Source: Actinopolymorpha rutila | Lineage (GTDB): Bacteria > Actinomycetota > Actinomycetes > Propionibacteriales > Actinopolymorphaceae | Direction of reading: 5' to 3' | NCBI RefSeq assembly: GCF_013407855.1 | Contig: NZ_JACBZH010000001.1 | Location: forward strand, 1,922,001-1,986,000 | Length of the DNA: 64,000 nt | Shown here: one piece after another, positions 32,943-41,437 of the stretch | How the letters are laid out: each line of letters begins with the position of its first letter | How positions within the stretch are numbered: the first letter of the stretch is position 1 | Translations under genes and position numbers: made by a program | Notes under the pieces: model-generated | Database searches by the model: none | Seen by the model: the letters and a program-made list of their open reading frames with translations, nothing else | What the model was told of the DNA's origin: nothing

Positions 32943-35570
32943 TCAGCCGCCGACCTCCACCGACAACCCGTCCGCGGCGGGGTCGGGACGCAGGTCGAGG
33001 GTGCGGATCCGGCCGGCGGCGGCGAGGTCGTCGCGGGCCGACGCCAGCAGGTCGAGGTCGGCGGCCGGGCCGCGCATCTCCACCCGTTCGAGCTCCGTTC
33101 GCATGGACAGTTTGCGGGCCGACTTCTCCCCACGCACCGCCGACAGTGCCGAACCCACCAGGGTCAGCAGCCGCGCGTCCGCACCGCCTTCCGGGAGTTC
33201 CTCGGCGCGCGGCCAGGGCTGCCGGTGGATCGATCCGTCCCGCCACCACGACCACACCTCCTCGGTGACGAACGGCATGATCGGCGCGAACAGCCGCAGC
33301 TGCACCGACAGGGCCAGTGCCAAGGCCGCCTTGACGGACGGGTCGCCGCGGTAGGCACGGTCCTTCACCAGCTCCAGGTAGTCGTCGCAGAACGTCCAGA
33401 AGAACCGCTCGGTGACCTCCAGGGCGGTGGTGTAGTCGTACGCCTCGAACGCTCTGGTGGCCCGCTCGACCACCCCGGCGAGCGCGGCCAGCATCGCCTG
33501 GTCGAGCGGCTGCGTCACCGCACCCGTGCCGTCGCCGGTGCCGGTCGCGCCCAGCCCGAGCACGAACTTGCTGGCGTTAAGGATCTTGATCGCCAGCCGC
33601 CGGCCGACCTTCATCTGGGTCTCGTCGAACGGTGAGTCCAGCCCCGGCCGGGCCATCGCCGCGCGCCAGCGCACCGCGTCCGCGCCGAAGGTGTCGATGA
33701 TCTGCTCGGGCACCACCGCGTTCCCCTTGGACTTGCTCATCTTCTTGCGGTCGGGGTCGACGATGAAGCCGGAGATCAGCGCGTGCGTCCACGGCACGGT
33801 CTGGTGCTCGTGGTGGGCGCGCACCATTCGGGAGAACAGCCAGGTGCGGATGATGTCGTGCGCGTGCGTGCACAGGTCCATCGGGAAGACCCGGGCGAAC
33901 AGTTCCGGGTCACGCTCCCAGCCGCCCGCGATCTGCGGGGACAGCGACGAGGTGGCCCAGGTGTCCATCACGTCCGGGTCGCCGGCGAAGCCGTTCGGCC
34001 GGCCGCGCCGCGACTCGTCGTACCCCCGTGGCGGCTGCGCGGACGGGTCGACCGGGAGCTCGGCCTCGCTCGGCAGCAACGGGTGGTCGAAGTCCGGCTC
34101 GCCGTCGCCGTCGAGGAGATACCACACCGGGAACGGCACGCCGAAGAACCGCTGCCGGGAGATCAGCCAGTCGCCGTTCAGGCCGCCGACCCAGTTGTCG
34201 TACCGGTGCCGCATGTGGGTGGGCACCCAGGTGATCCGCGCGCCGTCCTCCAGCAGCTCGGCCCGCAGGTCGTCGTCGCGGCCGCCGTTGCGGATGTACC
34301 ACTGCCGGGTGGAGACGATCTCCAGCGGCTTGTCGCCCTTCTCGTAGAAGTTCGTCATCCGCATGGTGGGCGCGGGCTCGCCGTCGAGGTCGCCGGACTC
34401 GCGCAGCAGGGCCACCATCGCCTGGCGGGCGCTGTGGGTGGTCTTCCCGGCGAGTTCGGTGTACACGGAGGCGGCGGGCTCGTGCGTCAGCCATTCCGGC
34501 GTCTCCCGCAGCAGCCGGCCGTCGCGGCCGATGACCGTACGCACCGGCAGCCGCAGCTCGCGCCACCACTGAACGTCGGTCAGGTCGCCGAACGTGCAGC
34601 ACATCGCGATGCCCGAACCCTTGTCCGGCTCGGCGGCCTGGTGTGCCAGCACCGGGATCTCCACCCCTAACACCGGTGAGGTGACCGTGGTGCCGAACAG
34701 CGGGGCGTACCGCTCGTCGTCGGGGTGTGCGACCAGGGCGACGACGGCCGGCAGGAGCTCGGGCCGGGTGGTCTCGACGTACACCGGTCCGTTCGGGCCG
34801 TGGAACGCGATCCGGTGATAGTGGCCGGCGTACTCCCGGGACTCGAGCTCGGCCTGCGCGACCGCGGTCTGGAACGTCACGTCCCACAGCGTCGGCGCCT
34901 CCTGGAGGTACGCTTCGCCGCGGGCGAAGTTACGCAGGAACGCCCGCTGGGAGGCGGTCCGGGCCACCGGCCCGATGGTGGTGTAGGACTGCTCCCAGTC
35001 CACTGACAAGCCGAGCTTGCGCCACAGGTTGGCGAACGCCTCCTCGTCCTGTTCGACGAGCCGCTCGCACAGCTCCACGAAGTTCGGCCGGCTCACCGGC
35101 ACCTGGCGCTTCGGGTCCGGCTTGGCCGGCGGTGTGAAGCCGGGGTCGTAGGGGAGTGAGGGGTCGCAGCGGACGCCGAAGTAGTTCTGCACCCGGCGCT
35201 CGGTGGGCAGGCCGTTGTCGTCCCACCCCATCGGGTAGAAGACCTCCTTGCCGCGCATCCGCTGGAAGCGGGCGATGAGGTCGGTGTGGGTGTAGGAGAA
35301 CACGTGCCCGACGTGCAGGCTGCCGGACACGGTGGGCGGGGGAGTGTCGATCGCGTAGATCGCCGAACGCTCGGCGGAGCGGTCGAAACGGTAGGTGCCC
35401 TGCTCGCGCCAGCGCAGCGCCCAGCGCTGGTGCAGGCCGTCCAGGGTCGGCTTGTCCGGGATGGCGGAGGTGGATCCGGTCGCGTCGGCCGGTTTGGTGG
35501 CGTCGGCCGGGGTGGTCGCGTCGGGCGCGGTGGTGGCGCGGGTGGATGTGGTCGTCGCGTGGGTTGTCAC
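32943..35570 (-). CDS. valS: Valyl-tRNA synthetase, [11 protein letters not shown] type (first of two)
   Basis: Charges tRNA-Val. 875 residues, class Ia. The signature HVGH is at 86-89 within [21 protein letters not shown], and KMSKS is at 610-614 ([13 protein letters not shown]). The wording around both motifs ([32 protein letters not shown]) differs from the usual bacterial ValRS and from the second copy at 38741-41437, and recalls the archaeal/eukaryotic-like branch. The first 35 residues are a Thr/Ala/Asp repeat ([20 protein letters not shown]). GTG 35570 has AAGGTGAG upstream. A leader reading frame and hairpin precede it. Confidence 0.93.
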
Positions 35571-35679
35571 GATGGCTCACCTTGGGGTCGCGGCGCCGCT
35601 CATGAGGATGGTGGCGTACGCCGGATGCGAGTGCGGTCGGCGAAGGCGCGCCGCGAGGGATGCGCGAGAAAGAGAACTG

Positions 35680-35769
35680 CTACGCGCCCTGGCGGCGCAC
35701 GGCTACTCGCGCCAGGGCGTCGTGGACGCGGCAGCGGGCGCGGGGGAGGAACGAGCCGTTCGTAGCCAT
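35680..35769 (-). CDS. Putative valS leader peptide (29 residues, leaderless)
   Basis: A 29-codon frame on the valS strand: MATNGSFLPR-ARCRVHDALA-RVAVRRQGA, ending TAG. A near-perfect -10 box TATCAT ends 8 bases before its ATG, so the transcript should start at this codon. Val codons are 15 (GTC), 22 (GTA) and 24 (GTG); the last two sit in the loop of a 10-bp hairpin formed by codons 17-20 and 26-29. The stop is 109 bases before the valS start. Role as a Val-tRNA sensor is inferred from position, codons and the hairpin. Confidence 0.55.
   Translation of the reverse strand: MATNGSFLPRARCRVHDALARVAVRRQGA
35685..35719 (-). promoter_or_regulatory. Attenuator-like hairpin in the valS leader
   Basis: Perfect 10-bp stem (CGCCCTGGCG with CGCCAGGGCG) around a 15-base loop; on the valS strand it is followed within a few bases by TTCTCTTTCTC. 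It lies wholly inside the 29-codon leader frame, with Val codons GTA and GTG in the loop. Confidence 0.55.
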
Positions 35770-35777
35770 CGCCGCCG

Positions 35778-35783
35778 ATGATA
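35778..35783 (-). promoter_or_regulatory. -10 box of the valS leader transcript
   Basis: TATCAT on the minus strand, 8 bases before the leader ATG at 35769. No convincing -35 TTGACA is present. The rest of the 352-base gap 35571-35922 holds this leader and, toward the + strand gene, nothing else recognisable. Confidence 0.55.
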
Positions 35784-35922
35784 CGCGACCGATGCTCGGT
35801 CCCGCCGTGACATTCGTACTACCAGGCGTAGGACATGTCCCACCCTGTTCGTAGACTGGCCGGCGGACCGGCCCGGGAAGTGGCCGGCGGATAACGGCGA
35901 TCGACCAGACGGAGGAGCAGCG

Positions 35923-38740: not shown

Positions 38741-41437
38741 ATGAGTGCGCCGCAGCGGCCCGAGTCCGCGCCCGAGCTTCCGCAGACGTTCGTTCCGGCC
38801 GAGGTGGAAGGCACGCTCTACGAGCGGTGGGTCGAGCGCGGCTACTTCACTCCGAGCGGCAAGCCCGACGCCACGCCGTACTCAATCGTCATCCCGCCGC
38901 CGAACGTCACCGGCTCCCTGCACGTGGGGCACGCGCTCGACCACACGATCCAGGACGTCCTGGTCCGCCGGCGCCGCATGCAGGGCTTCGACGCGCTGTG
39001 GCTGCCGGGCATGGACCACGCCGGCATCGCGACCCAGAACGTCGTCGAACGCGAGCTCGCCAAGGAAGGTCTGTCCCGCCACGACCTCGGCCGGGAGGCG
39101 TTCGTGGAGCGGGTGTGGCGCTGGAAGGCCGAGTCCGGGGGCAAGATCCTCGGCCAGATGCGCCGGCTCGGCGACTCCGTCGACTGGACCCGCGAGCGGT
39201 TCACCATGGACGAGGGGCTGTCGCGGGCCGTCGGCACGATGTTCAAGCAGCTGTACGAGGACGGGCTGATCTACCGCGCCGAGCGGATCATCAACTGGTG
39301 CCCGCGCTGTCTCACCGCGCTCTCCGACATCGAGGTGGAGCACTCTGACGACGACGGCGAGCTGGTCTCCATCCGCTACGGCGAAGGTGACAACGCTCTC
39401 GTGGTCGCCACCACCCGCGCGGAGACGATGCTCGGCGACACCGCCGTGGCGGTGCACCCCGACGACGAGCGCTACACCCACCTCGTCGGCACCGAGGTCG
39501 AGCTGCCGTTGACCGGCCGCCGGATCCCGGTGGTCGCCGACGAGCACGTCGACCCGGCGTTCGGCACCGGCGCGGTGAAGGTCACCCCCGCGCACGACCC
39601 CAACGACTTCGAGATCGGCCGCCGGCACGACCTGCCCAGCCTGGTGGTCATGGACGAGCACGGCGTGATCACCGCGCACGGGCCGTTCCAGGGGCTGGAC
39701 CGGTTCGAGGCGCGGCCCGCCGTGGTCGCGGCGCTGCGGGCCGACGGACGGATCGAACGCGAGGTCCGGCCGTACCGTCACGCCGTCGGCCACTGCCAGC
39801 GCTGCGACACGGTCGTCGAGCCGCGGGTTTCCCTGCAGTGGTTCGTGAAGGTGGAGCCGCTGGCCAGCGCCGCCAGCGAGGCCGTGCGGTCCGGGCGGAT
39901 CACGATCCACCCGCCCGAGCTCGCCAAGCGCTACTTCTCCTGGGTCGACAACATGCACGACTGGTGCATCTCACGGCAGCTGTGGTGGGGCCACCGCATC
40001 CCGGTCCACTACGGGCCGAACGGCGAGGTGGTGTGCGTCGGGCCGGACGAGCAGCCGCCGAGCGGCCCGGGCTGGACGCAGGACGAGGACGTTCTGGACA
40101 CGTGGTTCTCGTCCGGGCTGTGGCCGATCTCCACCCTCGGCTGGCCCGCGCAGACACCCGACCTCGCGCGCTACTACCCGACCAGCGTGCTCGTCACCGG
40201 CTACGACATCCTGTTCTTCTGGGTCGTGCGGATGGCGATGTTCGGGCTGTACGCCATGAAGGACCGCGGCCCCGCCGACAGCGTGCCGTTCCGCGAGATC
40301 GTCCTGCACGGCATGGTCCGCGACGCACACGGCAAGAAGATGTCGAAGTCGTTCGGCAACGTCGTCGACCCGCTGGACTGGATCGACCGATACGGCGCCG
40401 ACGCCACCCGCTTCACCCTCGCCCGCGGCGCCAACCCCGGCTCCGACGTGCCCATCACCGAGGAGTGGGCACAGGGCTCGCGCAACTTCGCCACCAAGCT
40501 GTGGAACGCCTCCCGCTTCGCGCTGATGAACGGCGCGTCCGCCGCGCTGCCGGTGCCGCCGGCGGAGCGGTTGTCCAGCGCCGACCGGTGGATCCTGTCC
40601 CGCCTGCACACTGTGATCGCCGAGGTCGACGCGTCCTACGACGGCTACGAGTTCGCCAAGGCGTGTGAGACGATCCAGGCGTTCGCGTGGGGTGAGTTCT
40701 GCGACTGGTACGTCGAGCTCGCCAAGACGTCGTTGACAGCGGGTGGCGACGCGGCGCAGGCCACCCGGGCGGTGCTCGGGCACGTCCTGGACCGGCTGCT
40801 GCGGTTGCTGCACCCGGTGATGCCGTTCGTCACCGAGGAGCTGTGGCTCGCGCTGACGCAAGGCGGCATTGACGGCGTGGACGGCATAGACGGCGTTGAC
40901 GTCGAGGCTGCGGCCGGGGCCGAGCGGTCGCTGGTCGTCGCCGCGTGGCCGGCCCCTGAGCAGGCGTACGCCGACCCGGCCGCGGAGGCCGAGATCGCTG
41001 CCCTGCAACGGCTGGTGACCGAGGTCCGGCGGTTCCGTTCCGACCAGGGCCTGCGTCCCGGGCAGCGGGTGCCGGCCCGGCTGGTCGGCATCGAGGCCGG
41101 CGTCCTCGCCGCGCACGAGCCCGCGATCCGCACCCTGCTGCGGCTGGAGGAGGCGGGCCCCGACTTCACCGCGTCGGCGTCCCTTCCGGTCGGCGACGTC
41201 CGCGTGGAGCTCGACACCGCCGGCACGATCGACGTGGCGGCCGAGCGGCGGCGGCTGGAGAAGGACCTCGGCAACGCCCGCAAGGACCGTGACCAGGCGC
41301 AGCGCAAGCTCGGCAACGCGGAGTTCCTCGCCAAGGCACCGCAACCGGTGGTTGACAAGGTGAACCGCCAGTACGCCACGGCCGAGGCCGACATCGCCCG
41401 GCTGGAGGCGCAGCTCGCCGCCCTGCCCGCCGGCTGA
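38741..41437 (+). CDS. valS: Valyl-tRNA synthetase, bacterial type (second of two)
   Basis: 898 residues. HVGH is at 61-64 in [22 protein letters not shown] and KMSKS at 533-537 in [17 protein letters not shown]; the [20 protein letters not shown] segment and the C-terminal coiled-coil arm ([21 protein letters not shown], about 825-890) are those of ordinary bacterial ValRS. Its place before folC and ndk matches Streptomyces, so it is probably the ancestral copy. A 13-residue repeat insert ([13 protein letters not shown]) before the anticodon-binding end is coded by 12-bp repeats at about 40864-40905. The ATG is leaderless. Confidence 0.95.

Follow-up and report, generated by a model that had tools for sequence, protein, structure and literature searches.

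In Gram-positive bacteria, T-box elements regulate synthetase genes by tRNA charging. In translational attenuation of the erm type, a ribosome stalled in a leader exposes a downstream start site. Going by the title of a 2020 study by Canestrari et al., cysteine-responsive leaderless short ORFs of mycobacteria, which carry cognate codons, reportedly attenuate operon expression. Actinobacterial synthetase operons were surveyed by Seliverstov et al. 2005, whose main text reports trpS, leuS and ileS (PMC1262725), and the main text of a reannotation of S. lividans gives leaders for leuS, trpS, alaS and thrS (PMC8079986); valS is unnamed in the main text of both. A term search found valS absent from PMC4895711 and PMC4681348, and none of the matches listed in literature searches dealt with a leader of valS or with GUA codons in this gene.

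Here we analyse the leader of an alternative valS in the window, the 64,000-nucleotide stretch of Actinopolymorpha rutila DNA presented above. The actinobacterial leader-peptide attenuators (ilvB, leuS, trpS, alaS, thrS) resemble this leader in being short, often leaderless ORFs upstream of the gene, with cognate control codons. It differs from them in having one conserved Val codon at positions 20-22, whereas theirs form a run near the start, and in that no terminator was found at the valS leader. Compared with a T-box, the signal at valS would be a translated codon, and there is no Rfam match. The mycobacterial cysteine-responsive short ORFs are poly-cysteine, whereas the valS leader combines a single rare codon with start-site complementarity. 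The erm type is like the proposed valS leader in that a stalled leader ribosome would expose the downstream start site; however, the erm stall is brought about by a drug and the nascent peptide, whereas the stall proposed here would follow from charged-tRNA shortage, with the start region of the leader itself as the putative masking partner. The valS leader would be a new version of leader-peptide control.

The leader frame upstream of alternative valS

The leader locus of the window consists of the following features.

32943..35570, minus strand: valS of the alternative type (NF000540 alt_ValS; profile match 1454.7 bits, cut-off 900)
35568-35570, minus strand: GTG start of valS, 109 nt downstream of the leader stop
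35580..35583, minus strand: weak Shine-Dalgarno-like AAGG of valS, read from the sequence
35680..35769, minus strand: leader-peptide frame MATNGSFLPRARCRVHDALARVAVRRQGA, 29 codons plus TAG, leaderless-type
35704..35706, minus strand: GTA, leader codon 22, a rare candidate control codon found at codon 20-22 in 8/8 leaders
35767-35769, minus strand: leader ATG, opening the 29-codon leaderless-type frame
35778..35783, minus strand: -10-like box TATCAT (TANNNT), 8 bases 5' of the leader ATG, read from the sequence

The original prediction had described, on the valS strand, a TATCAT box, eight bases, an ATG and a 29-codon frame, all of which are present as claimed. Its Val codons 22 (GTA) and 24 (GTG) were confirmed, the third Val codon of the leader being codon 15 (GTC), and so was the start of valS 109 bases past the leader, with the stop at 35680 and the GTG at 35568-35570. 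Read from the letters, the geometry of the leader start is that of a leaderless start, from which we infer the transcript start. A sigma-70 scan of the window leader gave 0 pairs of -35/-10 hexamers (0 expected), so the promoter call relies on the -10 box by itself. Searching NCBIfam with the leader peptide gave no match at E<=10. Rfam returned no match for the whole window at the gathering threshold and none for positions 35400-35900 at E<=1; a T-box was therefore not detected, in line with the earlier suggestion that this device is not used here.

Alternative valS is present in all 57 genomes searched, the own genome included. Within the window's family the leader frame recurs in 8/8 members, a small set in which four leaders are near-identical; it is 24-29 codons long and its stop lies 74-112 nt upstream of valS. 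All eight members have a TANNNT box 8 nt upstream of the ATG, and all eight leaders carry GTA at codon 20-22. In one of them (L040) a GTG stands immediately 5' of the ATG. All eight leaders share two identical sequences, GCGAGTA (R-V) and, ahead of the valS start, TGAGCCAT. A run of cognate codons is absent from the leader: a single Val codon is conserved, and Val15 and Val24 are variable, the former position being V/T/A/A across four close species and the latter replaced by Met in one of four. A strict pattern derived from the C-terminal half of the window peptide matched only the window itself among 34 upstream regions, indicating that the sequence of the leader peptide is not itself the conserved thing. 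Alignment of the relatives, which the original prediction had proposed as a check, thus upheld the frame (8/8) and GTA22 (8/8), and failed to uphold Val15, Val24 and the stem.

Two further observations concern the sequence on either side of the valS start. Past the leader stop, a stretch of ~60 nt (window 35606-35668, minus strand) is nearly identical across four congeners; since the preceding spacer differs in length, this block seems to be conserved on its own. The first ~35 codons of valS (window 35460-35570, minus strand) form a Thr/Ala/Asp-rich near-repeat, the length of which varies between congeners.

Stem, terminator scan and candidate clamp

Four paired elements are considered in the leader RNA.

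35685..35719, minus strand: 10-bp inverted repeat, CGCCCTGGCG (35710-35719) with CGCCAGGGCG (35685-35694)
35694..35713, minus strand: short hairpin GGCGC/GCGCC around GTA codon 22, with GAGTA in the loop
35764..35771, minus strand: candidate clamp 5' strand CGATGGCT, which includes the leader start codon
35570..35577, minus strand: candidate clamp 3' strand, AGCCATC with the G that opens the valS GTG, complementary to 35764-35771

It had been proposed that a perfect 10-bp stem formed by codons 17-20 and 26-29, followed by a U-rich stretch, serves as the switch. The stem is indeed present in the window, but its perfect form is not found in the relatives: three close congeners have a G.A mismatch, and the 3' arm is missing from four more distant family leaders. 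With the perfect form limited to the window, the stem is not supported as a switch. Neither the minimum-energy fold predicted for the window leader nor the consensus fold of the 8 leaders contains it. The fold of the window leader is modestly stabler than shuffles (z -1.89; 6/200 shuffles as stable). A terminator scan of the window leader, blind to Rho-dependent ends and to terminators without a T tract, gave 0 terminator-like sites (~0 expected), which speaks against the U-rich stretch as a terminator and leaves intrinsic transcription termination unsupported as the output. With 0 such sites and a stem that is not conserved, no intrinsic terminator with a competing antiterminator was found.

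These results bear on classical ribosome-mediated attenuation, in which a stalled ribosome would keep codons 17-29 from forming a terminator hairpin and polymerase would continue into valS. The leaderless-type leader peptide and its conserved Val codon fit such a device, and attenuators of this kind are predicted or described for actinobacterial ilv, leuS and trpS (PMC1262725, PMC8079986). Against it stand a 10-bp stem that is perfect only in the window and drops out of the 8-leader consensus, and a scan that found no terminator-like site, where Rho-dependent or T-tract-less ends would escape. We consider attenuation of transcription unlikely at this locus.

The short GGCGC/GCGCC hairpin keeps 3/5 pairs in 8/8 leaders, and the remaining two pairs in 6/8. 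A different pairing would join the two ends of the leader, the first bases of which, CGAUGGCU, are complementary to AGCCAUC(G) just before and into the valS start. This clamp was predicted in 7/8 leader folds, with probabilities mostly of 0.6-1.0; the fold predicted for L039 instead joins the 5' end to the opening codons of valS. Ranked against other segments of the same leader, the clamp complementarity came first in 6/8 leaders and second in 2/8. Among 1000 shuffles it was matched 4-14 times in seven leaders and 76 times in one, where it is weak. A covariation analysis found one both-sided change, and 243/500 shuffles scored as high; because the clamp pairs barely vary, covariation neither supports nor rejects the clamp. 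As modelled here, pairing of the leader start with the valS start appears to be a better candidate for the switch than the 10-bp stem, with covariation adding no support.

GTA codons near the start of valS

Class-wide, 184/296 genomes carry alternative valS at E<=1e-120, and 77 further loci (17 plus 60 hand-picked for family spread) were drawn from these 184. A TANNNT box precedes the valS start by 5-8 nt in 108/119 loci outside the window's family; 11/119 were left out as having no leaderless-type start by this pattern, and several of the 11 still have GTA before the motif. By its sequence, valS itself mostly looks leaderless outside the family. Of the 108 leaderless-type loci, which include three genomes counted twice, 74 have an in-frame GTA between codons 19 and 30. 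Counted over the 105 distinct genomes, it is present there in 71, or in 71/85 of those with any Val codon in the interval; the other 34/105 have no GTA at codons 19-30, and 14 of these have another Val codon there. The pattern is at its strongest within the window's order, where the codon was found at 19-30 in 44/49 genomes. Outside the order it was found in 27/56 genomes (27/38 of those with any Val codon at 19-30) and not in 29/56; by family, 10/21 have the codon and 11/21 do not, each of these 11 being represented by 1-3 genes.

As a fraction of Val codons, GTA accounted for 0/77 at codons 2-18, 74/137 at 19-30, 3/70 at 31-45, 6/444 at 46-100 and 9/2276 beyond codon 100. The corresponding counts outside the order were 0/42, 30/55, 3/40, 6/268 and 6/311. 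GTA is rare in valS, making up 2/1917 Val codons past codon 40 in 30 full genes. It was the most enriched codon at 19-30 (143-fold), the next being AAA (18-fold, on 7 counts), and in that interval of alternative valS it occurred 77 times in frame and 9 times out of frame.

Retrieval from named genomes, which took best matches only and may share species with the first set, detected GTA in 48 of the 57 loci whose start is leaderless-type; the full set numbered 80 loci, of which 23 were left out for having no such start by pattern. Nocardioides, Kribbella, Nonomuraea, Streptosporangium, Actinomadura, Blastococcus and Geodermatophilus were among the genera with GTA, and the codon was present in 24/28 named genomes assigned outside the order by name. 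A separate codon choice was seen in Kribbella-like valS (L017-L037), where Val7 is GTT in 14/14 genes, although GTT makes up ~2% of Val codons in the 30 full valS genes.

Other genes served as controls. Among 116 other leaderless-type ORFs of the same loci, chosen by composition and start pattern and not by annotation, 3 had GTA at 19-30, and across all position bins the share of GTA among Val codons stayed at 0-3%. Leaderless-type argS (18/30 loci) and serS (20/30 loci) had GTA at 0/25 and 1/37 Val codons at 19-30, respectively, and neither gene showed a clear preference for a rare cognate codon. Of 30 loci each, 5 leuS, 1 alaS, 2 thrS and 0 ileS looked leaderless by pattern. Leader peptides with a run of Leu were found behind TANNNT in 10/30 leuS loci; CTT occurs in nine of the ten, and is the last Leu codon in seven. 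The own-genome leuS (L187) has the leader MRTALLLIEPR, with Leu codons CTG CTC CTT, 190 nt before the match. CTT in leuS leaders is possibly the Leu counterpart of GTA, and the preference for it agrees with PMC11857589, which names GUA and CUU as control codons in the ilv leader (ilvL) of Corynebacterium glutamicum. Second alaS- and thrS-family matches with partial profile cover were also noted in the own genome (G000:C1:2497479-2499680 and G000:C1:2307649-2308833).

The window holds a second ValRS gene.

38741-41434, plus strand: canonical valS, ~3 kb from alternative valS

This gene has a leaderless-type start (TAAACT, 7 nt, ATG) with no early GTA, its Val18 being GTT. Canonical and alternative ValRS are related but divergent, at 33% identity. 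In the canonical set, GTA was present at 19-30 in 22/30 genes (347-fold enrichment) and formed 6/25 Val codons at 31-45; it was also common there out of frame (16, against 23 in frame). Canonical valS of further families (20 loci, one left out for having no motif) had GTA at 19-30 in 8/19, or in 10/19 if codons 18-34 were allowed.

Mapped onto a FastTree phylogeny of 127 alternative ValRS proteins, GTA presence shows at least 16 changes and the label of its alignment site at least 38, where GTA was counted within 42 codons before the motif and a second GTA was given a different label. Despite these repeated changes of alignment site, the codon number clusters near 20-26; selection therefore falls chiefly on the codon and on how far it lies from the start. 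Around the in-gene GTA, synonymous conservation showed no consistent rise: over codons 16-30 it was 0.93, 0.80 and 0.87 against 0.82 in Kribbella-like genes and 0.65, 1.00 and 0.44 against 0.81 in Nocardioides-like genes, and it was somewhat higher in Streptomyces-type canonical genes (0.80-0.95 over codons 1-30 against 0.76). Taken across genomes, the sequences point to a wider arrangement: whichever ORF comes first on the valS transcript, in other families valS itself, would carry GUA ~20-26 codons from its start.

Proposed sensing of Val-tRNA

The own genome has one tRNA-Val gene each of GAC, UAC and CAC, with 41/47 tRNA matches typed and the remaining 6/47 long and class II-sized. From slowing through queueing to the switch and its sign, we infer the following working. 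The codon GUA would be read by tRNA-Val(UAC), and when charged tRNA-Val(UAC) is short, ribosomes would slow there. Each ribosome occupies about 10 codons. Ribosomes would then queue back to the start codon, the stalled one with its P-site at codon 21 and the two behind it at codons 11 and 1. In the family leaders, ribosomes parked in this way would keep CGAUGGCU off AGCCAUC(G) and valS would be translated, giving induction on shortage; with Val-tRNA plentiful, ribosomes would clear the leader, the clamp would close and valS would be shut. Where GUA lies inside valS, the queue would cover the mRNA 5' end and could either protect the mRNA or throttle initiation. On its face, a stall within valS itself would lower, not raise, ValRS output.

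We favour, with some reserve, the reading that the leader is a real leaderless peptide which senses Val-tRNA through GUA22 and controls the alternative valS, and that it represents a split-off form of the wider actinobacterial arrangement. The frame, the conservation of the codon, its position, its specificity to valS and the clamp complementarity are the parts of this reading that sequence comparison bears out. A broader proposal is quite possible but tentative: a single synonymous codon, GUA near codon 20-26 of a leaderless valS mRNA, would be a valS-specific sensor widespread in actinobacteria, its queue reaching the start codon and tying the output of the synthetase to its product with no dedicated RNA structure, and the window's genus would have moved GUA to a leader with a clamp.

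Alternatively, GUA could be a brake, making valS translation track charged tRNA-Val(UAC) and so avoiding an excess of ValRS on shortage of valine or of this tRNA (positive coupling). In most GUA-bearing genomes examined the codon does lie inside valS itself, synonymous conservation does not rise consistently round it, and its distance from the start would fit queueing onto the start codon. A brake, however, implies positive feedback, unlike the usual synthetase controls, and it leaves unexplained both the move of the codon to a separate leader and the conserved pre-valS sequence in the window's family; we judge it improbable. On a further reading, the leader frame would have arisen by chance, and GTA in valS would reflect biased codon use or composition close to gene starts. 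The weakly conserved peptide sequence, the small number of leaders and the absence of the GTA codon from roughly half of the families that lie outside the order might suggest this. We judge it very improbable, since GTA is missing at codons 2-18 yet forms more than half of Val codons at 19-30, is specific to valS against argS, serS and the 116 other leaderless-type ORFs, and recurs in both types of valS, at sites that differ. Its position and gene specificity speak strongly against a chance reading of the codon.

The one-codon element proposed within valS may be of a new kind. The pattern of GTA shows strong, position-dependent selection on one synonymous codon. If GUA is indeed a sensor of Val-tRNA, a regulatory element would need just one codon at one distance. 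This would explain how an essential synthetase gene is tuned without a T-box or a leader in many actinobacteria.
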